A DNA stretch of 64,000 nucleotides from Halichondria panicea (Eukaryota; Porifera; Demospongiae; Suberitida; Halichondriidae): the NCBI RefSeq assembly GCF_963675165.1, contig NC_087390.1, forward strand, positions 3,238,001-3,302,000, given 5' to 3'. How positions within the stretch are numbered: the stretch's first letter is position 1; every line of letters starts with the position of its first letter. The translations under genes were made by a program, and so were the position numbers. The notes below the pieces were generated by a model that saw only the letters and a list, made by a program, of their open reading frames with translations, ran no database searches and had not been told where the DNA came from. Below are positions 4,877 to 40,641 of the stretch, one piece after another.

Positions 4877-7567
4877 ACTGCAATGTCTGGTAGAACCCTT
4901 TTTATACTCTTAGCTATGATACAGCTTTTGTGGTGGTTGTGAGGTGAGAAATTTAACGGCTTCGAAAGTACATTCCGTCACAAGAATGTTAGGAATGTTA
5001 GCAATCTGTCCAACATCAAGTTTTGCGCATAAAAATTGCTAAAGCTAAAGCTAACCTCAGTTCCAGGCCAAATTTTCAGGAGCCTGGTATCTATTGCATG
5101 CAGTGTGCATTTGCTCTTCACAATCTGGTTCCGTACAGCCTATGGCAAGTCTACAGTGGTTCTAAACTGCTGTTTGCAAAGACAACAGAGGTAGATGAGA
5201 GTCTCTTTTGGCTTCAGACTAGTGTGCAAGCCTTCTAGACCAATGTAATAGATGGCATAAGCCACAGCTTCATGGAACTCAGTCACGGAGATTAAGTACC
5301 ATGCTCTACCAAGATTACGCCCACTCCCGCTTTTGAGTGAAAGTTCCTATATGCTTCAGAATACGCTCACCAAGAAGTGATGCAATCTTGTGGAGCAGTT
5401 GTCAAAGAAATGGTTTAGCAGTTCAGTTCTTGTATATACGCTCTGAAGATAGCTAGATATAGCTACATCCAATTATTATTGCTCCTATTTGCAGGTCAGT
5501 ATAAGAGACAAGGACAATCTTCTCTGAATCTCTGTTGAAGACTCTGACAGTGACAAGGAATTAAAAACCTTTTGATGCAAACTTTTTACTTCTTTACTTT
5601 TCTTTGTACCTAGCTACTTTACCCATGCATTAATTATTGTTGTATTCATTGTATATTTCAAGCACTGGCAGGCCTCAAACTCGGACAGAAAATAATTATT
5701 TAGTTTCTTAATGAGTGGGTGTAATTCGAGAGGGTGAGGTTAATTTTGAATTTAAGCCCATCTCACCTGTAGCTGCTTTGTAGCTATTCAAAATCAAGTG
5801 GAAATAAGCTTCACTAGTCAGTGGGATTAAGCTATAATTACAAAAACGGCTGAAATTGGTGATAATATGGATTGATGGTTTTACCATTGCTTAGTATTCA
5901 ATTTCGGAGAAGGTTTGAGCTACCTTGGTGTGCCTCCCTACATCAGCCTCTTAACAAGATATAGAGCATTCGCATCAGCAGGTTGCATGCAGCCTGTGTG
6001 AAGAGGGAGAGGTATAGGTTACAGCTTCTGGAGTCTCCTGATTATGAGTGGTGCTAGACAGTGCTATTTAAGGGGGACCCAGTCTATAACTTAACGAGCC
6101 TCCAAAATTCCACTACTCAAGTAATCGTATACACAAAGCAACGAACGCAATCTCAAACCTGTAGCCTATAACTAGTTGAGCATGCAGTCCTGTTGAAATC
6201 AACGTTCCTCAACACACTTTAACTACAAGCCTCAATAACATGGGTGCGAGACTACTACACCAAAGACTACACTGACAACATCTAAGCGAGTCTAGACATA
6301 GATAATAGAGGAAGGGGATTGGAAACGGGATCACGTGAACTTATGCTTGCAACGTAAGGCCTCTGGACAGTCCGCATGTCAGACTCAACCAATAGACACC
6401 TTGAAGTGTGATTTTGAGGTCAAGAGAAGGTTTTGAAAAGAAGTAAATGAGGGTAAGTAAATGTATGAATAGCCTTATAATTCGTCTTTAGGTGTGGCTA
6501 GGTACAAAATGAATTATTATTACTAGTTAGCTAGAAGTCATGTTCATGCACTCTTTGTAGAACACAAAATTTGAAGATTTACAACAATTAGCTTTCTCTC
6601 TTTTTATTTGTGGGGTAAAAACTGACCATCTATTGTATATGAATGACCACAGTAGTAGATCTACATTATGGTATAATTATTGCTTCAACTGTATATTGGA
6701 AGTGCATGGGGAGATCATATACTTCTTGAGTCATTGGCCGAGTAAATTTTGTTGATTTACATTAGCCATTTTTGCGGGGTAGTTTCTCCATAACTAAGCT
6801 ATTCGAGACGTGGCAATAAATTATTAAAGATCAATGTCCATATTATTGCTTCCAATCCATTGCATTTTGCATTCATGCTCTGATTTTGTAACCGTAGTGT
6901 TGATGTGGCAAGAACTTGGACTGAGAAATCACTGGAAGACCATTGATAATTCATGCATAATTATGTTTAGACAATGCTTATACCTTTTACTGATTGTTTT
7001 TATAATTATATGTATAATCATTAAGTTTGTTAGTTTAGCATAAACTGCTTAGTGCATAAAATGTTTATTGTAAGCTCAAGCTGCATCCATGGTCGCGGCT
7101 ATAATTGAGGTTGTAGCAAGGACTGTCTCTTGTGTGAAATTAATAGTGCTATAAATTGCCTGCGTTTCCAACTCCCTCCTCTATTATGGTCATTGAGACG
7201 ACATCTGTATCTACTAGTCTCATGAATCAGCCGCCCTTCCTATGTGGGGAGGACTCTCCCATAGGAAGGGCGGCTAATTCATGAGACTATCATCTAGGTA
7301 CATGCATGGATATGATATGGCCGGCTGTTGAAATCGATGTTACGATATCCAAATAGTCAGTCATTCTCTCACACACACTCACTCTGCAGTACCTCTATAT
7401 TCCTGTGCCGCTGTGGTCTTATAGAGCCAAATAACTGGTATATATATATGCTTCACTTCAGACTTGAACCTACTGTCGATGTCAGCAGATGTCAGATTCT
7501 TCACGATCAACTCACTAGGATAGGATCGTCAGGGTCAAAAGGTGAAAATCATCACTGACTACAATGC
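4877..7567. other. Upstream half of duplicated NLR unit 1; no intact gene seen
   Basis: Sequence 4877-6230 is a diverged duplicate of 17701-18510 with indels; for example, both contain GAAGGTTTGAGC(T/C)ACCTTGG and CCTCCAAAATTCCACTACTCAA-like stretches. The remainder up to the CARD exon is AT-rich. A hairpin at 7215-7289 is listed separately. No coding region is supported. Confidence 0.55.
7215..7289. repeat. 75-bp near-perfect hairpin
   Basis: A left arm beginning TAGTCTCATGAATCAGCCGC and its reverse complement (ending …GAATTCATGAGACTA-type) pair over about 33 bp around a short GA-rich loop, with one or two mismatches. It is either a tiny foldback element or a structured RNA precursor; the sequence alone does not decide. 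Confidence 0.8.
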
Positions 7568-7974
7568 ATGGCTAGGCTACAGACTTTAAGACTTCAGCAG
7601 CCAAGGCTTTCCGTGAGCACAATGACAAACTGGTAGACTCCATCCAAGAATCAGACCTGCCTGTGTTGGGGTCACAGATTTACAGTCGACATATAATTTC
7701 CAGGGAAACAATGAGAATGGTTGGAAATGTGTCTACCATGCACGAGAGCTGTCAGGGTGTCCAAGTTGATGCTAGCTGTAATAACTCACTTGGACGTACA
7801 TCCGGACAAGTTTGAGAGTGCCTTGGACGTCTTCAGAGAAAAGCTGGTGTATGCTGAAGTTGCTAGCATGATTGCATTGTGTTTTGGTAAGTCGATCAGA
7901 ATAATCACATTTTTTAATTAGTGTATTAGTACACATCCCTTGGAGTGGTTTTACTACTGGCAACACAATACATA

Positions 7975-8105
7975 CTACTTATCAGTTGCCATGCAGACAT
8001 GCGCACACAAAGGTCAGGTTACAGTGTCCTAAAGGTTTACTGCTGTGTAATTATAAAGCAATGGAACCTTTTCCTGACCTTTGTGTGTGCATGTGTGGCA
8101 CTAAG
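7975..8105. repeat. Small inverted-repeat element in NLR A intron 1
   Basis: CATGCGCACACAAAGGTCAG at about 7987 is inverted as CTGACCTTTGTGTGTGCATG at about 8075-8095. The interior is unrelated AT-rich sequence of about 70 bp. Non-coding foldback. Confidence 0.6.
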
Positions 8106-8984
8106 GTCAGATGTGCTCAATTGACTATGCATGGTTCGTGACAAGTATCATATAATCATAGCTATATATATATGCCTATAAGAAGCCAGTGAATGCTATA
8201 ATGTCCTGATCACTACTCGTCCCTAAATTCAACTCAACACTGTCCAACTGGTATTTAATTATGTACATCTGATCGGCTCGGCCCCGCTCCCGCATAAATT
8301 TTGCTCATATTCATTCTTCTTGCAACAAGGCAGAGAGTATACAGGCTAGACTCATTGTCCTGAATTGGCCCCAGATTACCCCTGTCCCTTGTCCCGAAAA
8401 GAAACTGCTATTCACCTCAGATATCCCGGATTTTCAAGGTTGCTGGTGATTACTAAGCTCCAATATGCTAAGCCTGGAAATAGAATCTTGAAACAATGAG
8501 AAACAGCTTTACACATGCAGAGAACTTATAGCTATAGCTAGCTAGCTTGATCAGTTCAATAAGTGGGCTGGGATCACTTGCTTAAAAAACAACAACGAAA
8601 CACCACTGTTAATAGTGACAGCACATCATTATTATGAGCATGCGCAGTGAGTAAGCCACATTGAGAGCTGAGCAGTGATGCTACTGGGGTATCCCCACTA
8701 CAATTCATATGTAAGAAAACATGGAAGAGATGTGAATTGTTATCTTCGCACTGAAAGTCAGAGTCATAATTATGTGCTTGAATTATTGTGAATTCGCTTC
8801 CTCCGCTCAGGGGATAACGCCCTCGTGTTTTGTCCCTGAAATTTGGCTGGGGAAGTTGGCCCCTTCGTTTTTATTTGGCTAGGAGAATTGTGTAAAGAGA
8901 CTGAAAAGAATATGTATGCCCCTCATTTTTGTTTTAAAATCTTGAGTAGATTTGTATATTGTACTCTTTTTTCTTGGTGTGCAG

Positions 8985-9266
8985 AGACTGCAGCTCAGTT
9001 GAACCATGAGTGCTCAAATGAAGCTCTTTGCTTGTTGCTGGGCCTGAGTAGTGCTGACATAGACGAAATCGATAATGATCCAAGAAACGTCTACAGTTCC
9101 CAAGGCAAGTGTTACACTGCTCTGTTAAAATGGAAGAGCAAAAATATTGATTTAGACAATCCATCAAAATCGACAGCTACTTACGCTCGATTAGTAGAAA
9201 TTGCTAAAGAGGACAAAGACAGAGAGGCAATTCGAGAAATTCACAAGGCTTGTGTCAAGTATGTCA
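8985..9266 (+). CDS. DEATH-domain exon of NLR A (intact cassette)
   Basis: Flanked by a TGTGCAG acceptor and a GTAAGT donor, with phase 1 at both ends. The 94 codons are fully open and read as a Death domain: helices around NEALCLLLGLSSADIDEI, then the conserved LLKWKSKN tryptophan block, then YARLVEIAKEDKDREAIREI. Death domains recruit adaptors by homotypic contacts. The symmetric phase means the exon can be included or lost without shifting frame, and the paralogous gene C has no counterpart between 20381 and 21377. This exon is undamaged although its neighbours are broken. Confidence 0.8.
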
Positions 9267-9704
9267 GTAAGTTACATGTATGGCATAATTATATATTATC
9301 CTTTATATTGATCTAGCCACTTTGATCATTTAGCTACGGCAGCTTCCTTATAGTAACTAATTATGTGGTAAAGCATAATTATGCCTTGAGGTGTAGCCGC
9401 ACGAGGGATACGGTAAGGTAAAACTGACTGTGTGTGTGTGTGTGCATGTGTGTGTCTGTCTGTACTGTAACTGCTCAACGGTTGCAATGCGACGAAAACT
9501 AACAGCTTCTATAGGCTTCTAGCCATTGGATTTTGATTCGTGGATTTGCAAACTAAAGCCTAACAGTGAAGGCTGTTGCAGTCTCTTTCATAGCATCATC
9601 TGTTCGCACAAACTTTCTATTCAACTTATGAGTTAACCATGCTCTAAAGCGCTAGCTGTTTGTTAGCTACAAGACTCAGGAAAGAGCTGCAAAGCTGCAT
9701 ATCC

Positions 9705-10430
9705 AGAGGAGGTTCGACAGGGTCAAAAGCTCACTAATGAATTCATCACATGAGCTTATGTTGTGTGCAGTAAATTTGCAAGTGTGACTGCTTGTCGCGC
9801 CCTGATTCTTGTGATAAAATAGCCCTTCATGTTACTGCTGCTACCAATTGGTTTCACTTTTAGCTATATACTGCGCCCCTCCAGAAAAATCGTGCAGTCT
9901 CTAAAAGGAGTGACCTCACACAAAGGTCGGCGTCTTGTCATGTCAAACTGACCTCTGAACTGTGGAAAGTAGGAGCTACCGTACTGTAGAGCGAATGTAG
10001 AGCTCAGCTACGTATATGTCCAGCCTATTGTTTTTATTAAATCGCCTATTATTCCCGCATTATTCCTCCAAAGCACAACATAAGCACAACATAGACCCCA
10101 TGCATGTTATCGCACAAGTAACATCAAACCAGAGGAGGTTGGACAGAGTCAAACGGTCACTAATAAATTCATCACGTGAGCTTATGTTTTGTGCAGTAAA
10201 TTTGCAAGTGTGACTGCTTGTCGCGCCCTGGTTCTTGTGATAAAATAGTACCTTCATGTTACTGCTGCTGCAAATTAGTTCACTTTTAGCTACTGCGCCC
10301 CTCCAGAGAAATTGTGCAGTCCCTTAGGGGTGACCTCACACAAAGGTCGTTTTTCTGTCATGTCAAACTGGCCTCTGACCTTTATAAAGTAGGAGCTACC
10401 TTATTGTAGAGCGAATGTATCGCTCAGCTA
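9705..10430 (+). repeat. Tandem direct duplication of ~300 bp (offset 423 bp)
   Basis: 9705-10015 and 10128-10430 are near-copies (GAGGAGGTT…GACAG…GTCAAA at the start; TGTAGAGCGAATGTA near the end) within intron 2 of NLR A. A 65-residue open frame across the second copy is not protein-like. Confidence 0.75.
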
Positions 10431-13537: not shown

Positions 13538-15890
13538 TAGAGTCGATTGATTGAGTATATGCAGAACAATAGCATGAATCCCATTTCAATGGAAGACCTT
13601 TTAACTGAAAAAGACGGCTCACTTCCCAAAGCCGTAATCATTCAAGGGGTCCAAGGAATAGGCAAGTCGACTTTTGCTTGGAAGTTTTGTAGAAAATGGG
13701 CCAAAGGAAAAATCTATCAGCAGTATGACCTGGTTGTTTTGTTGCGCATGCGTGATACAAGAGTGAGAAAAGCAACCAAACTTGGCAATCTCTTCTTTTC
13801 AGAAGATGCCTGTTTTTTTAAGAAAGTAGCAATGCAAGCAGTTTCTAACGGTGGAAAGGGCATTCTTATCCTGATGGAAGGAATAGACGAACTTCCTGCT
13901 TCTTGTTTAGCTGATGGCATGCCTCTTTCTAACTTGCTTCAAGGTGAATCTCTTCCAGAAGTTACCATCATAGTAACCAGTAGACCCTGGGCTGTGCAGA
14001 CACTTGAGGAAGAGTGTGGGGATCAGATTTCTCGACAGGTGGAAATCTTGGGCTTCACAAGAGAAGACATCTTGAGGTACGTTTCGCATGCTTTTACTGG
14101 GGAGGAAAAGACAGAGTTCTTAGAGTACCTCCGCTCCCACCCTCAGCTGGAGTCCATCATGCACATCCCACTGAATGCCGCCTTTGTTGTTCAGATCTAC
14201 AAACAATTTCGTCGTTCTCAGCAAGCTATTCCTAGCACTTTGACCCAGCTCTACACAGCTCTTGTTGAGGGTCTCTTGCTCCGCTATACCAAGTCAATTC
14301 CTGAGTTTTGTGCTCTCAAATTTATCTGTCTTTCAAGCTTACCAGAACCAATACAAACATATTTCCATCAGCTTTGCTTACTAGCTTTCATGAGTTTTAC
14401 CAAGTTGACTTTTCAAGTCACTTTCACCGATTCAGAGGCAGCCTTGTACGAGTGTTTTGATTTCCTGGGTCTCATGCAGTCCTCAACTGAACTCTCAATA
14501 AACACTAGTACCACTGTATCCCACAGCTTTCTGCATTTCACCATCCAGGAGTTCCTAGCAGCTTACCATCTCTCTAAACAGCCGTCCCAAGTGCAAGAGC
14601 TGTTTTTGGAAGTTCACAGCAAAGATCCACAATTTTCAATGCTTATCACATTTCTGGTTGGATTGAACAGCAGCGTTCTGCATTATTTTACGCTACCATA
14701 TACAGATTCAGAGTGTCAAGATTTGTCCACATTTCACTTGCACTTGTTGTATGAAACACAATCACCTAAGGATGTATGCAAGTTCTTAGGAAGTAAGACC
14801 GTGAGGCATTGTCCTACCCTAACAAGTACATCACTTGACCTACATGCATTATCATATTGTCTTTGCTCCAGCGATTGCAATTGGTATCTAATAATCAGTC
14901 TGCGAAACTTATCAACACTATGTTCAATGTCGATGATTTTTGTGAGGGGCACATAATGGGCCTGGTAATTAGAGATGCCTCTGCACGTAACCTTCAATTA
15001 TTCTTTTCTCTTCCCAAGCGTCTCTTTTCAAACTTGTATGAATTAGAAGTTAGAGATTGTGAACCTGTTGGTTCTGTTGTAGACATCTTAAATGACGGCC
15101 AGTTAACGAACTTGAAACAATTTTGCTTTGTGAGCAAACGTGTACATGCATCATTAACATTGATGTTTGAAAGTCTAATCACTTCTCACCCAAAACTTGT
15201 TCACATTGGAATCGAAAGCACTGTAATCTCCTCTTCTGATATGGTAGGATTATGCAAATACATGACTTCTCGCTCTGGCTCACCTGAGCTTACAGTAGCT
15301 CTTATGCAAAACAGTATTAAATACGAGTCCTTTCGTTTACTGATTAGTACTGTTGCATTTTCAAAGGTTCTTACCCATTTGGATATTTCTTTAAACAATC
15401 TCTCAATAGAAATATTAGAAATGCTGTCAGTTGCTCTTTCTGCTAATTTATCTTTGAAAACATTAGGAGTGTATGATTGTTCAATCCATGGTGAAGGAGC
15501 TGAATTACTATCCAATGGACTGGAGTTGAATCAAAGCCTCCTCGGATTGGATCTTAGCCGTAATCACATAAATATGAATGGAGCGGCTGCCCTGGCTTCA
15601 ATGCTTACTGTGAACACTTCACTAAAAATTCTTCGCCTTTCACACAATAAACAAATTGGTCATGTGGGAGCTCTAAGACTGATCAGTGCACTGCAAGATG
15701 ACAACAAGACTCTTGAAACACTTAGCCTCCCTGCAGAATGTGAGCCAATTGAATATGGATCAATCTTAATGGATGATACGAAATAGTGGTCGTATAAAAT
15801 TTATCGATAATACAAGTTCAACATCGAACACAATAGCACACAATTTTACATCATTAGACATATGGCCTTATCTATAGTGAACACTCTATT
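13538..15890 (+). pseudogene. NLR gene B: NACHT-LRR copy lacking N-terminal domain
   Basis: Homology to gene C starts abruptly at the residues SIDEYMQNNSMNPIS, with no CARD or DEATH exon and none of the ~85 residues that precede this point in C exon 2. The preceding 13230-13537 is unrelated sequence. A usable ATG at 13559 opens about 465 codons containing GVQGIGKST (P-loop, Pro to Gln), LILMEGIDE, TSRPWA and HFTIQEFLAAYH. A one-base deletion near 14925 shifts the frame. The LRR part continues in the other frame (14857-15786) and ends at a TAG about 30 residues early, after a 2-base deletion near 15775. As it stands it could make only a truncated NACHT protein. Divergence from C is low, so the copy is young. 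It arose by tandem duplication next to A. Confidence 0.85.
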
Positions 15891-20067: not shown

Positions 20068-23000
20068 ATGGCTACTCAGGACTTCAAGACCTCAGCAGCC
20101 AAGGCTTTCCGTGAGCACTATGACAAACTGGTGAAATCCATCCAAGAAGCAGACCTGCCTGTGTTAGGAGCTCAATTCTTCAGTCGACAGATAATTTCTC
20201 GGGAAACAATGGAAATGGTTGGAAATGTGTCCACCTCGAGAGTTCTCAGGGTGTCTAAGTTGATGTTAGCTGTGATGGATCACCTAGACGTACATCCGGA
20301 TAAGTTTGAGAGTGCCTTGGACGTCTTCAGAGAGGAGCTGGTGTATGCTGAATTCGCCAGTGTCATTGCATCGTCTATTGGTAAGTGAATAGGCATTTTA
20401 ATACTGCCTAAGCAAAGTGTTTGTGCACTAGATTTAGATCTAGGGAGGCCATGCCCATTGGAAAGGGACTCGACTGTAATGCAATTAGAGTAATTCACAA
20501 ACTATAATATGCTTAATGCGTGGGTGATAAATTTTTTGCCTCGATACACGTCGCCATGCAAAGATGTGTTTCACTCGAGGCTGATGATATTTCATGCAGT
20601 CATAATAAGCGCGTGGACGGTTGTACGTAAGTCCTTGTGACGTCTACATTCTTGTGGTTGCGCGAGATTCTTCACACACTTTGATAAGTAGCTTACCAGT
20701 CCCTTTAATTCCAAGGGCAAAAAGGGCATAGCCTCTAGATCTTAACGAGATGTGCATTGATTTGTACAATTGCGAGAATTTATTCATGTACTGCTGATGT
20801 TCAGATAAGAATGTGTGGGGCGTACCTTTGTGTAAGCATGTGTGATAAATTATTAATGTGAATTCGATTAGTAACCAGCAATAGCTAGGCCTCTGATTTC
20901 ACGAGGCAAAACCGAGTGTTGTTTACCTTGTACAAATAACCATACTAGATTGCTGATCGTTATGATTCAGTTTTAAATAGCATTTTTAGCTGCGCTGTTA
21001 TTTTAAAACGATCCCATTTACTTGCTTGACGACGTGCAATTACTGGTCCGGATGTGATACGCTATTAATTGCACTGCTTCACTGATTCCAGTGCAATAAT
21101 AGTACGATTATTGGAGTCAAAGATGTGCTATGTGCATTGTAGTTGAAATACTTGTTGATCATAAGGTGGAAATACCCCAGGTAACCGCAAACCATGACAT
21201 TGTTATGATTCACTATATATGGCAAGAGTGTGTGTACCATCCTGGGGTATTTTTTGCCTTTTTTGTGTGCAATAAGTCATAAGCGTGTGAATTCAATTGT
21301 GTGCTCATAATACCCTAATAATTAAATTAATGTTCGTATGCAATTACAAGCTTCTTTACTATCTAAAAACTGTACAGGTAACAATCCTACTAACTCTCAA
21401 CACTCCCTAACTATGCTGACGGCCTCACCAAGAACAGCTATCAAAAAATATGCCGACTACCTGAAAAAGGTGTACCTTCGATCAAAGCTCCCTGTCAAAG
21501 GAAAATGGCCTCCTGCTCCCTGTAAAAAGATCATCAAGCTAGCTACTATTGAAATTGAAGAGCAAAATTCACATTCAGCATTGTGCAAGCTAAATAGATC
21601 CGAGTCGATTGATGAGTATATGCAGAACAATAGCATGAATCCCATTTCAATGGAAGACCTTTTAACTGAAAAAGACGGCTCACTTCCCAAAGCCGTAATC
21701 ATTCAAGGGGTCCCAGGAATAGGCAAGTCGACTTTTGCTTGGAAGTTTTGTAGAAAATGGGCCAAAGGAAAAATCTATCAGCAGTATGACCTGGTTGTTT
21801 TGTTGCGCATGCGTGATACAAGAGTGAGAAAAGCAACCAAACTTGGCAATCTCTTCTTTTCAGAAGATGCCGGTTTTTCTAAGAAAGTAGCAATGCAAGC
21901 AGTTTCTAACGGTGGAAAGGGCATTCTTATCCTGATGGAAGGAATAGACGAACTTCCTGCTTCTTGTTTAGCTGATGGCATGCCTCTTTCTAACTTGCTT
22001 CAAGGTGAATCTCTTCCAGAAGTTACCATCATAGTAACCAGTAGACCCTGGGCTGTGCAGATACTGGAAGAAAAATGCGGGGATCAGATTTCTCGACAGG
22101 TGGAAATCTTGGGCTTCACAAGAGAAGACATCTTGAGGTACGTTTCACATGCTTTCGCTGGGGAGGAAAAGACTGAGTTCTTAGAGTACCTCCGCTTTCA
22201 CCCTCAGCTGGAGTCTATCATGCACATTCCCCTGAATGCCGCCTTTGTAGTTCAGATTTACAAACAATTTCGTCGTTCTCAGCAAGCTATTCCTAGCACT
22301 TTGACCCAGCTCTACACAGCTCTTGTTGAAGGTCTCTTGATTCGCTATATCAAGTCAATTCCTGAGTTTTGTGCTCTCAAGATTATCTGTCTTTCAAGCT
22401 TACCGGAACCAGTACAAACACATTTCCATCAGCTTTGCCTACTAGCTTTTATGAGTTTTACCAAGTTGACTGTTCAAGTCACATTCACCGATTCAGAGGC
22501 AGCCTTGTACGAGTGTTTTGATTTCCTGGGTCTCATGCAGTCCTCAACTGAACTCTCAATAAACACTAGTACCACTGTATCCCACAGCTTTCTGCATTTC
22601 ACCATCCAGGAGTTCCTAGCAGCTTACCATCTCTCTAAACAGCCGTCCCAAGTGCAAGAGCTGTTTTTGGAAGTTCATAGCAAAGATCCACAATTTTCAA
22701 TGCTTATCACATTTCTGGTTGGATTGAACAGCAGTGTTCTACATTATTTTACGCCACCAGATTCAGAATATCAAGATTTGTCCACATTTCATTTGCACTT
22801 GTTGTATGAAACACAATCCCCTAAGGATGTATGCAAGTTCTTAGGAAATATGACCGTGAAACATTCTCCTGCCTTGACAAGTACATCACTTGACCTACAT
22901 GCATTATCATATTGCCTTTGCTCCAGCGATTGCAATTGGTATCTAATAATCAGTCTGCGCAACTTATCAACACTATTCTTCAATGTCGATGAGTCTTGTA

Positions 23001-23935
23001 AGGGGAACATAATGGGACTGGCAATTAGGGATGCCTCTGCACGTAACCTTCAATTATTCTTTTCTCTTCCCAAGCGTCTCTTTTCAGTCTTGTATGAATT
23101 AGACGTTAGAGATTGTGAACCTGTTGGTTCTGTTGTAGACATCTTAAATGACGGCCAGTTAACAAACTTGAAACAATTTTGCTTTGTGAGCAAACGTGTA
23201 CATGCATCATTAACATTGATGTTCGAAAGTCTAATCACTTCTCACCCAAAACTTGTTCACATTGGAATCGAAAGCACTGTAATCTCCTCTTTTGATATGG
23301 TAGGATTATGCAAATACATGACTTCTCGCTCTGGCTCACCTGAGCTTACAGTAGCTCTTATGCAAAACAGCATTGAATACGAGTCCTTTCGTTTACTGAT
23401 TAGTACTGTTGCATTTTCAAAGGTTCTTACCCATTTGGATATTTCTTTGAACAATCTCTCAATAGAAGTATTAGAAATGCTGTCAGTAGCTCTTTCTACT
23501 AATTCATCTTTGAAAACATTAGGAATGAAGTATTGCTCAATCCATGGTGAAGGAGCTGAATTACTATCCAATGGACTGGAGTTGAATCGAACCCTCCTTG
23601 GATTGGATCTTCGCTATAATCGCATCAATATGAACGGAGCTGCTGCCCTGGCTTCAATGCTTACTGTGAACACTTCATTAAAAATACTTTGCCTTTCACA
23701 CAACAAACAAATGGGTCATGTGGGAGCTCTAAGACTGATTAGTGCACTACAAGATGACAACAAGACTCTTGCAACACTTAGCCTCCCTGCAGAATGTGAG
23801 CCGATTGAGTATGGATCAATCTTGATGGTTGATATACGAAAGAGTGGTCGTATAGAATTCATCGATAATACAATTTCAACAACGAATACAATAGCATACA
23901 AGTTTACATCATTAGACATATGGCCTTATGCATAA
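20068..23935 (+). CDS. NLR gene C: intact CARD-NACHT-LRR receptor
   Basis: Two exons, 20068-20380 (donor GTAAGT) and 21378-23935 (acceptor GTACAG), join in phase 1 to give 956 residues. Residues 1-104 form a CARD-like helical death-fold domain (FREHYDKLVKSIQEADLPVL … FESALDVFREELVYAEFA). NACHT motifs: Walker A GVPGIGKST at 215-223, Walker B ILILMEGIDE at 287-296, TSRPWA at 325-330, and the winged-helix signature HFTIQEFLAAYH at 511-522. Ribonuclease-inhibitor-type leucine-rich repeats run from about 788 to 920 (LTHLDIS, LLGLDLR, LKILCLS). Such receptors sense microbial or danger signals in the cytosol and oligomerise using ATP. This is the only full-length reading frame of the three local copies. 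The upstream ATG at 20026 is out of the homologous region, so 20068 was chosen because it matches the start in copy A. Confidence 0.92.
21168..21256. repeat. Small foldback in NLR C intron 1
   Basis: AATACCCCAGGTA at about 21170 is inverted as ACCATCCTGGGGTATT at about 21237-21252, about 60 bp apart. Short non-coding inverted repeat. Confidence 0.5.
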
Positions 23936-36839: not shown

Positions 36840-39751
36840 ATGTCTAAGCCAGCTGAGTACAAAGCTTTCATGGATTGTTACGATGATTTTATACAGCTTG
36901 TAGAGCAGGCACCAAACGACGTCTGTAATCAATTGATTCCTCTTGAATTACTACCACCAGCAGTGATAAAATACGTTAGTAATAACGTTCATGATGATGA
37001 TGAAAAGGCGTCTCGAATATGTAACACTCTGTCGAGCCAAATCCAAATCAATTCAGAGGCTGTTCATTTATTTATTAATTCTCTAGAAAAAGCTGGTAGG
37101 TGGACACGTTATGCAGTCGAAAATTTCCAAAAAGCACTGGAGAACCGCAAACAAGAAGAGTGCATTGAGTCCAAACAGAAAATTACCAAGCCACAGCACA
37201 TACAAGAAAACTGTGAGTTGTGGGGATGATATGAAGGTTAATAATCGTGTACATATAGTCTGTATATGTACTATGAGTCTTTTCTCTACTTGCTTTAGTG
37301 TCCTCAACCATCGCAAGTCCATTACCACATCGAGCTGCCATCAACAATCACCACCTCCTTGACAACAGTGAAGATTTTTTTGCAAAAACTGGGTGCTGGA
37401 ACGGTAACAACCTTTGTGCATTTACTGTAGGAATTGGTCCAATGTAGGTTACTATTATATATGCACACGCATGATTAGCCTCGCACAGATCTAGAGTTGT
37501 ATTTAAGTATAATTTCAGGAGAAAGAAGGAGAATAGACTTGCTGGAGAATGAGATTTGTATGAAATAGCAAATACATAATTATACATTGTTGGTTAGAAT
37601 CAGTCTCTCAAAAGCTGTGCTATCTCTTTCCAAGAGTTAGTGTCGTTGTTGGCTTTGTTCATGTGATGCTCTTATATAGCTACAGCCTCTTCCAGTTAGT
37701 AATTATACCAATAGTAGATCAGTTTGGAGGTAACCGAATGTAGCCACACCCAATGCCGCATTACCGAAGCGTGACATTCCTGAGCGTGACATACATACAT
37801 CAAAGGTTTTATGAGATACAATGCAGTTAGTTGCCTCGCGCTAAGGCGCTCAGTAACAAAGATTAATTAAACGATCGTGACCAACCTCCTCCGATTACCA
37901 TGGATTGGTAATGTGTTGAGTTTAGGGAGTCAGACATTTCATGGCGTTGTTAATTGTGCGAGCTACTGCTTTTGTACTGAACAACCTATATAACTTATTA
38001 TTACAGGTCGACCAGTTGTGATTGTCCTAGCTGTTTTGCTAGGTGTTGCAGCAGCTTTCAGTGGAGGAGCTTGTGTGTACATGTATTCTGGAGAGGATAT
38101 CGCCACTGCTGTTAGCGTACCAAAAAATCAAGAACGAAATGAGAGTAAAATAGAGTTCTACGAAGTTTTTCCTCAGCAAAATGTACCTACTATTAATAGC
38201 CCCTTTTTTGGTCGAGCCAAAGAACTAAAAGAAGTAAAAGAACTTATTATCTCAAACGCGGTCCGTATTATTAATATCAATGGTCCACCTGCTTTTGAAA
38301 AATCCAGACTAGCAAATCAGTTGGGTCATGAATTACTGCATTATTCTGGTGTCATTCCAAACATTCGATATATAGATACAGTGACTTCTAGAAAGTCGTG
38401 GTATCTCTGTTCAACCAGCACTTCACAAAAACAAGAACGTAATAGATATTCTGGCACACATGATATATCTGACACTGAGTCTCCAGAAAGTAGTGGTCAA
38501 AGTGTATATGACGACAATTTATGTACGTTGATTACATGGCAGAAAAAAAGAACTGTATTGATATTTGATAACTGTGACCCAATCCTGCACAGTAATGATC
38601 GAAAGCTGTTTGTAGATATGCTTCAAACATTTCTATCAATGAATGTCCAGATATTTAATGTGGTAGTTGTATCTCAAGAACAGTTGTTTTTCTTAGATGA
38701 TGGTTTTTACTCAATTCATCTAGAAGCACTTTCACCAATGGATTCTCAGGCTATGCTAATGCATTACATACAAAACCTGACTACTGCACAAGCTAATGAC
38801 CTTTACGCTGTTGTTGGCGGTTGCCCTCTGGCACTAAAAGTTGTTGCAAAGCTTCTTTGTGAAAGAAATAGTCTGAAGTCGTTGTTAGCAAAGCTGAAGC
38901 AAAACGTAACATTTACATTATCTAAAAAGTCTACAAGAGAAGAGGATCAGTTGCACAAAGTAATAGACATTGCTTACAAAAAGTACATGGACCCTCTGAG
39001 TAGAAAATGTGCTCGTGTTCTGAGTCTCTTTCCAGGGTCTGTGAGTGAAGAGATGACCAACAGTGTCTTATCTGAAATTGTAGACCCGTCGTGTATTGAA
39101 GATGTCATACGTTTGTCGTTTTTGGAAGAGTTTTCAATCGAAGAATTACGAAGATTTTCTATCCACACTGTTATTCAAGGTTACCTGAAATCTGTGCATC
39201 TTATCCAGTCTGATATAAAAGCTTTCAATTCATCTTTTCTCAGTTTCTATTCTGATTATTTAACAAATGCCATGAAGCAGAGTTACATGTATGTTCATCG
39301 AAACATAAGCAATGAAGACAGTTACTTATTAAATGATTTGGAATCTCACAATATGAATGAATTTGTACCAATGCTCCTATCAACAGACATTGATGAAGAG
39401 CTTACATTGTATTCTGCAATAGCGCTAGGCTTTCTAATCTATGAGAAAAGGATTCCTGAGGCCTATACTCATGACGTCTTCCTAAAAGCACATAACTTAC
39501 ACAGCAGCTCTTCAATATTTGACAGTCTTTGTGCTCTCTCCTCCAAAGACGTATGCACGAGCATCCTATGGAAATCATTTTCGCTTCTTGTAATACAGAA
39601 TGAATGTAATAGCTATTTTTCCTTCATTTCAAATCTATTCTTTGCTCACCCGATATGTTCTCAACTCTATAATTGCTCCAAACTAAATCCCTTCGATTAT
39701 CAATACACTGTGTTACAAGAAATTGTGAACCAAACAGAAAAGTCCCTATGA
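36840..39751 (+). CDS. Membrane-anchored CARD-TM-NB-ARC STAND protein
   Basis: Exons 36840-37212 (donor GTGAGT), 37299-37403 (donor GTAACA) and 38007-39751 join without frame change (total 2223 nt, 740 residues). An in-frame ATG at 36807 is an alternative start. Residues 1 to about 110 form a CARD-like death-fold (YDDFIQLVEQAPNDVCNQLI …). A strong transmembrane helix follows at about 162-184 (VVIVLAVLLGVAAAFSGG). The NB-ARC-type ATPase begins at FFGRAKELKEV (226-236). Its P-loop position reads NGPPAFEKSRL (251-261), lacking the GxGK(S/T) form. Walker B is TVLIFDN (342-348), the GxP motif is GGCPLAL (430-436), and a winged-helix LSLFPGSV segment follows. The sensor-1 arginine appears missing (VVVVSQE). 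The C-terminal ~250 residues are helical and unassigned. STAND NTPases act as signalling switches; the altered P-loop suggests weak or absent ATP hydrolysis. The architecture is inferred by eye. Confidence 0.78.
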
Positions 39752-39894
39752 GGGGTGTGATACTTTCAAACACTTATTGTAAGATGTCAACTACATGCAT
39801 ACAAGTGGATTATGGAGTTTTTGTCTAAATGGACTCTCGTGATTAATGTTTTTGCTATATTACTTGTAGTGGCACTAGTGTATATGGAATATCT

Positions 39895-40641
39895 ATGATA
39901 TTGCGGGATTTTTTTACAGTTTTGCTGATTGCAGAAACATGTATATTTTTTTGCGTTGCATTAAATATACTGTTGTACTTTCCAGACCGTACAGATTCGT
40001 ACTATCAATTGTATGCTGAGTTTTGGTATGACATCTGCATCAGTATTTCAGATTATGTCGAGGAATGGCAATGTACTCATCTACCTACTTCCTTCATCAA
40101 CAACACAATGTCAGACATGTGCAACAACACAACTGCAATTGTCGAGGAACATGGTATGTCACTTGTAATTATTAGTATGGCAATTCCCCTATTCCTGAAA
40201 ATACTTGTTTTCTCAATAATCCTCTTCATTTATGGTATTATAAACTACCAAGATGTTAATTCTAAATTTCTCCAAGGCATAATAGTTGGTTTCCTAATTG
40301 GTTCTTTTGTTTTTGATATCGGTATTTTGATGCTTGGCTGTTCTGCTGTCTCCAGATTTATGACCTTTTCCCCTGCGATTTTTTACACCATATACATACT
40401 TATTGAATTGCTGCCCATTTCATTTTATGTATTTGGCTACATTATTTACCACCACAAGAATGCTTTTATATATCCACTATTAAACGTCAATCAGAACCGG
40501 ACCGAACGAATATCCCTGGGATTGTGTATGAAACCCGTATTCGTGAGCTCACTCTTTGCAGCACTTTGTTATGTTATGATGTATTACTGTGCACAATTTA
40601 TTAATTACTCTAGTAATGGTGGTCTTGTCCATTCTTTATAA
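39895..40641 (+). CDS. Multi-pass membrane protein, unrecognised
   Basis: A 248-codon frame begins 143 bp after the STAND gene's stop. It has about five hydrophobic helices (FFTVLLIAETCIFFCVALNI; SLVIISMAIPLFLKIL; GIIVGFLIGSFVFDIGI; FYTIYILIELLPISFYV; VFVSSLFAALCYVMMYY) and a Cys- and Asn-rich loop after helix 1 with NNT/NNTT glycosylation-type sites. No family recognised. A short frame at 39812-39895 (MEFLSKWTLVINVFAILL…) encodes another possible helix just upstream but is in a different frame. A TTTTTTTACAG acceptor at about 39910-39920 raises the possibility that this is a 3' exon of the STAND gene or of a short upstream exon. Either a separate gene or an alternative C-terminus. Confidence 0.55.
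   Translation: MILRDFFTVLLIAETCIFFCVALNILLYFPDRTDSYYQLYAEFWYDICISISDYVEEWQCTHLPTSFINNTMSDMCNNTTAIVEEHGMSLVIISMAIPLFLKILVFSIILFIYGIINYQDVNSKFLQGIIVGFLIGSFVFDIGILMLGCSAVSRFMTFSPAIFYTIYILIELLPISFYVFGYIIYHHKNAFIYPLLNVNQNRTERISLGLCMKPVFVSSLFAALCYVMMYYCAQFINYSSNGGLVHSL

Follow-up and report, generated by a model that had tools for sequence, protein, structure and literature searches.

A probably damaged sponge gene from a family predicted to set a membrane helix between a death-fold domain and a STAND ATPase

The locus at positions 36840 to 39751 of the window (the whole stretch of DNA analysed here, 64,000 nucleotides from Halichondria panicea) is, in our reading, probably a damaged member of a family in which a CARD or Death domain, a membrane helix, a STAND ATPase and C-terminal helices follow one another, and whose intact members would hold the death-fold domain in the cytosol and the ATPase on the outer or lumenal face of the membrane, the outer STAND modules clustering the inner death-folds. 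The window copy itself serves mainly as a warning, its changed P-loop being a private lesion rather than a family trait.

The window locus and its relatives

The features of the locus, all on the forward strand, are as follows:

36840 to 37212 (+): exon 1, coding for a CARD-like domain; open frame of 124 residues and one further base, with donor GTGAGT in phase 1
37299 to 37403 (+): exon 2 as first proposed (35 codons, phase 1 at both ends); doubtful and probably intronic
38007 to 39751 (+): exon 3, with predicted membrane helix, STAND ATPase and helical arm; early stop at 39749 to 39751
38015 to 38086 (+): predicted transmembrane helix VVIVLAVLLGVAAAFSGGACVYMY, from hydropathy; counterpart helix in the eight other own-genome members read
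38282 to 38305 (+): P-loop GPPAFEKS, reading GPPAFGKS in near relatives
38555 to 38578 (+): Walker B VLIFDNCD, conserved in relatives
38816 to 38836 (+): GGCPLAL, GLPL-like STAND motif, conserved in relatives
39752 to 40641 (+): remnant of the hydrophobic C-terminal region, from a by-eye three-frame reading against P0002 and P0003, tblastn of relatives and hydropathy

A preliminary description of this DNA had proposed three exons with consistent phases and a product of 740 residues. Its exons 1 and 3 stand, the latter (acceptor present) lying inside a 585-codon open frame (37994 to 39751), but the middle exon has no counterpart in the copies compared: it gave no match below E 0.89 in the loci compared besides its own, and the C14:3364k copy, which shares 81% identity in exon 3, aligns with window exons 1 and 3 and with nothing between them. 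The 740-residue model was rejected as the likeliest product because of this lack of conservation. As the end of exon 1 and the start of exon 3 are both in phase 1, direct joining gives 705 residues, which would be the likeliest product of the window gene. Two stretches of the intron (within 37458 to 37851) match DNA near the C17 NACHT-LRR gene described below, in inverse orientation (70 and 87%), and are probably a transposable element.

Exon 1 encodes, by its predicted fold, a CARD-like death-fold domain. Modelled alone with AlphaFold (pLDDT 77.2; 70.5, 45.7, 44.4 and 44.0 for the other four models) it takes a six-helix CARD fold whose top structural matches in Foldseek/VIA are CARDs, the best being entries of Apaf-1 or of its complex with caspase-9. 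Pfam gives no match to PF00619 (CARD) for exon 1 or its relatives. A profile of exon 1 picks up an exon of the C17 gene at E 8.5e-6, and that exon narrowly misses the Pfam cut-off for CARD (E 2.5e-4). The CARD-like first exon of the preliminary description is thus borne out by the fold, without a direct Pfam sequence match, while the AlphaFold check that it proposed for the full-length product gave a poor model (pLDDT 42.9), which was left out of fold searches. Database entries matching exon 1 number seven (65-100% identity), the 100% entry being the window's own. Between the window and C14:3364k, a pair that cannot date damage on one branch, dN/dS is 0.97 for exon 1, 0.43 for the ATPase and 0.65 for the C-terminal part, so that the CARD exon may evolve fast.

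The most hydrophobic 19 residues of the window product, VVIVLAVLLGVAAAFSGGA (mean hydropathy 2.46), lie at the start of exon 3, in agreement with the single transmembrane helix first placed between the CARD-like exon and the ATPase. For the ATPase that follows, the earlier assignment to NB-ARC holds as far as a STAND ATPase is concerned, but the best Pfam profile of exon 3 is ATPase_2 (E 1.8e-7, short of the cut-off by 1.5 bits), with a weak match to NB-ARC (E 0.014); P0002, a close relative, scores above the Pfam cut-off for ATPase_2. Walker B, the GLPL-like motif and a match to the family profile are all present, and the P-loop reads GPPAFEKS in place of the pattern GxxxxGK[ST], just as the preliminary description had it (a degenerate P-loop with Walker B and GGCPLAL kept). 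Neither NACHT nor LRR was matched by exon 3 or the C-terminal frame in Pfam at E values up to 10, and the window gene does not show the NACHT plus LRR combination of an NLR. Sequence searches of the PDB with two alignments returned one irrelevant weak match and none, respectively.

Twelve matches at 11 places in the same genome, window included, belong with this locus, that at C14:4672k being a short fragment with stops. A helix precedes the P-loop in all nine of the family members read (window included; C6:4331k and C14:4672k left out), and one also precedes the ATPase of the C17 NACHT-LRR gene. A CARD-like exon lies upstream, in the same orientation, at C14:3364k, C14:4641k and C14:4626k (E from 1e-65 to 2e-4); the C17 gene has one too (E 8.5e-6), and C11:4495k shows a weak match (E 0.1). 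For the C5, C6 and C8 loci the exon 1 profile gives nothing better than E 1. Splice pairs with donor and acceptor both in phase 1 pass a simple threshold in the window and at C14:3364k, C14:4626k, C11:4495k and C5:5196k (the upstream exon of C5:5196k and the second upstream exon on C11 having been chosen by eye, without profile or Pfam support), and none passes at C14:4641k or at the C17:1269k gene. The own-genome relatives extend 171-291 residues beyond the helical arm, and this extension is largely hydrophobic; judging by these copies, the window stop at 39749 to 39751 is not the end of the family. Two further observations were made at these loci. In the stretch L031 (C11, from 4488001 on) a family copy at 6070 to 6429 and 6667 to 7080 has a second CARD-looking exon before its helix exon (by eye, no Pfam support) and a single in-frame TGA at 7822 to 7824, shortly past the P-loop. 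At the C14:3364k locus, positions 2 to 1360 of L027 (reverse strand) hold a 453-residue open frame with the look of a DDE transposase by eye.

Protein databases hold at least 13 relatives of exon 3 by the exon 3 query and at least 79 by a profile of diverse members, both lower bounds, about 8,000 candidates sharing most words having been scored per exon 3 protein search. A Death domain is listed in 12 of the 79 relatives listed (above the Pfam cut-off on rescan in 10 of the 12), and in all 12 a hydrophobic helix lies between Death and P-loop within a single open frame, that of P0077 being borderline (1.63). Upstream of the P-loop, a helix was found in 36 of the 57 relatives listed; 19 of the other 21 sequences begin within 100 residues of the P-loop, and their helix may therefore have been cut off. 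At least one hydrophobic segment lies well downstream in 47 of the same 57. Because Death, helix and ATPase share one open frame in these relatives, the order of death-fold, helix and ATPase can be taken as a family trait, and the idea that the joint between CARD and helix is a splicing artefact was rejected for the family. A helix that would leave the two parts of the chain on opposite sides of a membrane, as first suggested for this locus, thus recurs singly between death-fold and P-loop in the window copy, in its own-genome copies and, where the same order was sought further afield, behind a Death domain in the same open frame (12 of the 12 Death-listed relatives). As read from these sequences, the family order is a death-fold domain, one predicted helix, a STAND ATPase with its helical arm and more predicted C-terminal membrane helices, and the family probably belongs to sponges. 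One relative of TPR type, P0073 (1240 aa, JGI data), keeps its P-loop intact, has its helix at 143 and begins with an N-terminal stretch that looks Death-like by eye.

Such helices are not general among the NACHT genes sampled in this genome. The window holds two NACHT exons above the Pfam cut-off (13541 to 14953 and 21326 to 23932, the second with LRR-like repeats by eye), neither with a hydrophobic helix in the same open frame, and the helix is absent from five of six stretches sampled before other NACHTs, the sixth (L045) having one borderline segment (1.64) far upstream; the notion that all NLRs of this genome carry a helix was accordingly dropped. The C17 gene (L039, C17 from 1263001 on), with a CARD-like exon at 2319 to 2678 and an exon at 6470 to 10000 carrying a helix, NACHT (E 1.1e-19) and LRRs, reads as a putative NLR whose CARD and NACHT are separated by a membrane helix, though no splice pair passes there. 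Over the 131 Mb genome there are at least 102 NACHT matches (102 scored of 265 candidates), many of them clustered on C13, C14 and C7, and 27 CARD matches. At C13:1702001-1712000 (L037) a single strand carries matches to CARD and to NB-ARC together with exons that by eye look like WD40, an APAF-1-like gene separate from the window family.

Predicted membrane topology

The side of the membrane on which each end lies is suggested first by charge. Among 24 non-redundant members with at least 12 residues before the helix (a few own-genome entries may include intron), lysine and arginine flanking the first helix are more numerous on its N side in 18, on its C side in 3 and tied in 3 (77 versus 24 residues). 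From this bias the death-fold is predicted to face the cytosol, with the ATPase extracellular or in the lumen of an organelle; the cysteines point the same way, less firmly. Of 12 cysteines on the ATPase side, 11 do not vary among four own-genome copies, compared with 96 of 498 positions in all; when two C5 copies are added, 5 of the 12 remain invariant, compared with 58 of 498. Across 48 sequences, 80% conservation is reached by 5 of 17 cysteine columns, by 5 of 17 glycine columns and by 62 of all 580 columns. The 12 Death-bearing relatives have 16 cysteines in 1758 residues before the helix and 153 in 6695 after it. Certain cysteine columns co-vary over the 48 sequences (352 with 390, phi 0.88; 630 with 691, phi 0.92; 652 with 685, phi 0.77), which would fit disulfides, shared ancestry explaining part of it; column 770 may be an alignment artefact. 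Sequons do not settle the topology: in a first set there is no excess (51 versus 46.5 expected), in a larger set there are 36 versus 23.0 expected after the helix, 158 versus 124.6 in the ATPase and 9 versus 8.7 before the helix, and the two NACHT exons without a helix also exceed expectation (3 versus 1.39 and 4 versus 1.96).

It is somewhat unlikely, though the best placed of the alternatives, that the ATPase is cytosolic, with the helix dipping into the membrane or forming a hairpin, or with the CARD side outermost, the family then comprising membrane-tethered, NLR-like cytosolic sensors. STAND switches are taught as cytosolic, and the cytosol is where the well studied STAND ATPases work; to our knowledge, an extracellular P-loop ATPase would be unexpected. 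Hydropathy alone is no proof of a spanning helix, sequons do not discriminate, cysteine conservation fades with distance, and conserved cysteines could instead bind metal in the cytosol. Against this stand the 18-to-3 imbalance of charge about the helix, the distribution of cysteines in near copies and in Death-bearing relatives and, for a CARD placed outside the cell, the lack of any partner that we know of.

If the ATPase is instead outer or lumenal, as we prefer, helices would hold both of its ends in intact members, a ligand on the outer side or the nucleotide state would cause the STAND module to oligomerise, and this would cluster the inner CARD or Death domains and so set off caspase or NF-kB-type signalling. 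The sequences themselves show the order of parts, its conservation, the intact P-loops of the relatives and the lesions of this copy; from them we infer topology, ligand control and downstream pathway alike, ligand and pathway being guessed from known death-fold biology. The fullest form of this proposal, which we put forward only tentatively, is a class of inside-out receptors in which an outer, disulfide-stapled STAND ATPase anchored by helices at both ends reads an outer signal and fires inner CARD or Death domains, the window holding one copy that is dying by loss of its P-loop. The outer signal could perhaps be extracellular ATP itself, bound by a working P-loop. A large family that set the switch on one face of a membrane and its death-fold effector on the other would, if real, offer a distinct way of coupling outside sensing to CARD or Death signalling in early animal evolution, and it makes testable predictions of sidedness, disulfides and ATP dependence.

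Lesions in the window copy

The glycine of the P-loop that is glutamate in the window copy is kept in P0002, P0003 and four more relatives. The intact pattern is present in 66 of the 74 relatives listed; with a broader pattern P0073 proves intact as well, and the remaining seven start after this stretch, so that GKS is kept in all 67 listed relatives that hold it and glutamate for glycine occurs in the window copy only. A pseudo-ATPase family was rejected on this count (67 of 67). The pseudo-ATPase sensor or scaffold that the preliminary description had suggested likewise fails, the relatives' P-loops being intact and the glutamate being private to the window, where it is accompanied by C-terminal frame changes. 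These changes, three in number, fall past the stop (from about 39748 to 39885), and the last stretch is open from 39847 to 40641 (more than 250 codons). The sequence after the stop still resembles the C-terminus of the relatives, but the window copy has no C-terminal hydrophobic bundle in frame, only this remnant. It therefore seems most likely, on sequence grounds, that the window locus is a decaying family member or duplicate, which has likely lost both ATP binding (by the P-loop glutamate) and its membrane C-terminus (by the stop and frame changes). If a protein is made, it would amount to no more than a CARD protein anchored in the membrane and blind to nucleotide, a decoy.

Private substitutions number 8 in the window copy (two of them at sites otherwise unchanged), 13 in P0002 and 21 in P0003. 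With so few of them and such long open frames, the copy either began to decay recently or may still be used. In the latter case the window copy could be a working truncated regulator, whose membrane CARD and nucleotide-blind STAND body dampen or scaffold the complexes of its intact siblings; the CARD and ATPase exons are fully open with splice sites present, the private substitutions are only 8 against those of P0002 and P0003, and the C-terminal remnant is open for more than 250 codons. We consider this unlikely, since three frame changes right after a stop resemble decay and no second changed P-loop occurs among the 67 listed relatives with the stretch. Still less probable is that frame changes and P-loop change are assembly errors or haplotype mixing at an ordinary intact locus: near-identical intact relatives do exist in other assemblies (P0002 is 96% identical to exon 3) and several alike copies each lie on a contig of 802,900 bases, which makes close duplicates likely, but such errors would have to produce three separate frame changes and a missense change at an otherwise unchanged site in a frame that is clean elsewhere.

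Comparison with known systems

Membrane STAND receptors are already a known kind. The order of CARD or Death, a single helix, an ATPase_2-like STAND module and a C-terminal membrane bundle was not found in the open-licence literature searched, in so far as its accessible text goes; the earlier statement that no family with this order had been described thus applies to the exact order and not to membrane-bound NLRs, which are in print. Sponge NLRs with predicted transmembrane domains are described from Dysidea avara, A. queenslandica being credited with the first report (PMC12909245). They resemble the window family in being STAND proteins with predicted transmembrane domains and in forming expanded families; as excerpted, they are NACHT(-LRR) proteins (PMC12909245), whereas the window family is ATPase_2/NB-ARC-like, shows no NACHT or LRR match and has a second, C-terminal hydrophobic bundle in its intact members. 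Actiniarian (sea anemone) NLRs are STAND receptors as well; they are predicted to sit in the membrane and have 3-5 transmembrane domains at the N-terminus, and the available text describes no single helix between death-fold and ATPase together with a C-terminal bundle (PMC5094078). In the sea cucumber, AjNLRC4 and AjNLR-new are membrane NLRs, and AjNLR-new is reported to have an extracellular NACHT, an outer ATPase topology like that predicted for the window family; going by the portions at hand, these proteins differ in having an Ig domain in place of CARD or Death and a NACHT ATPase (PMC13133943). Another paper mentions, beside NLRs in the part consulted, a gene that is up-regulated and predicted to have a transmembrane domain (PMC6208332); this gene may be an NLR or belong to another family.

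APAF-1 and CED-4 share with the window family a CARD followed by a STAND ATPase, and it is Apaf-1 entries that the exon 1 model matches best. They are soluble proteins, with a WD40 sensor in APAF-1, and differ from the window family in having no membrane helix. Toll-like receptors, with neither an ATPase nor a multi-helix C-terminus, provide an analogy of working rather than of parts: an outer sensor, one helix and an inner signalling domain.
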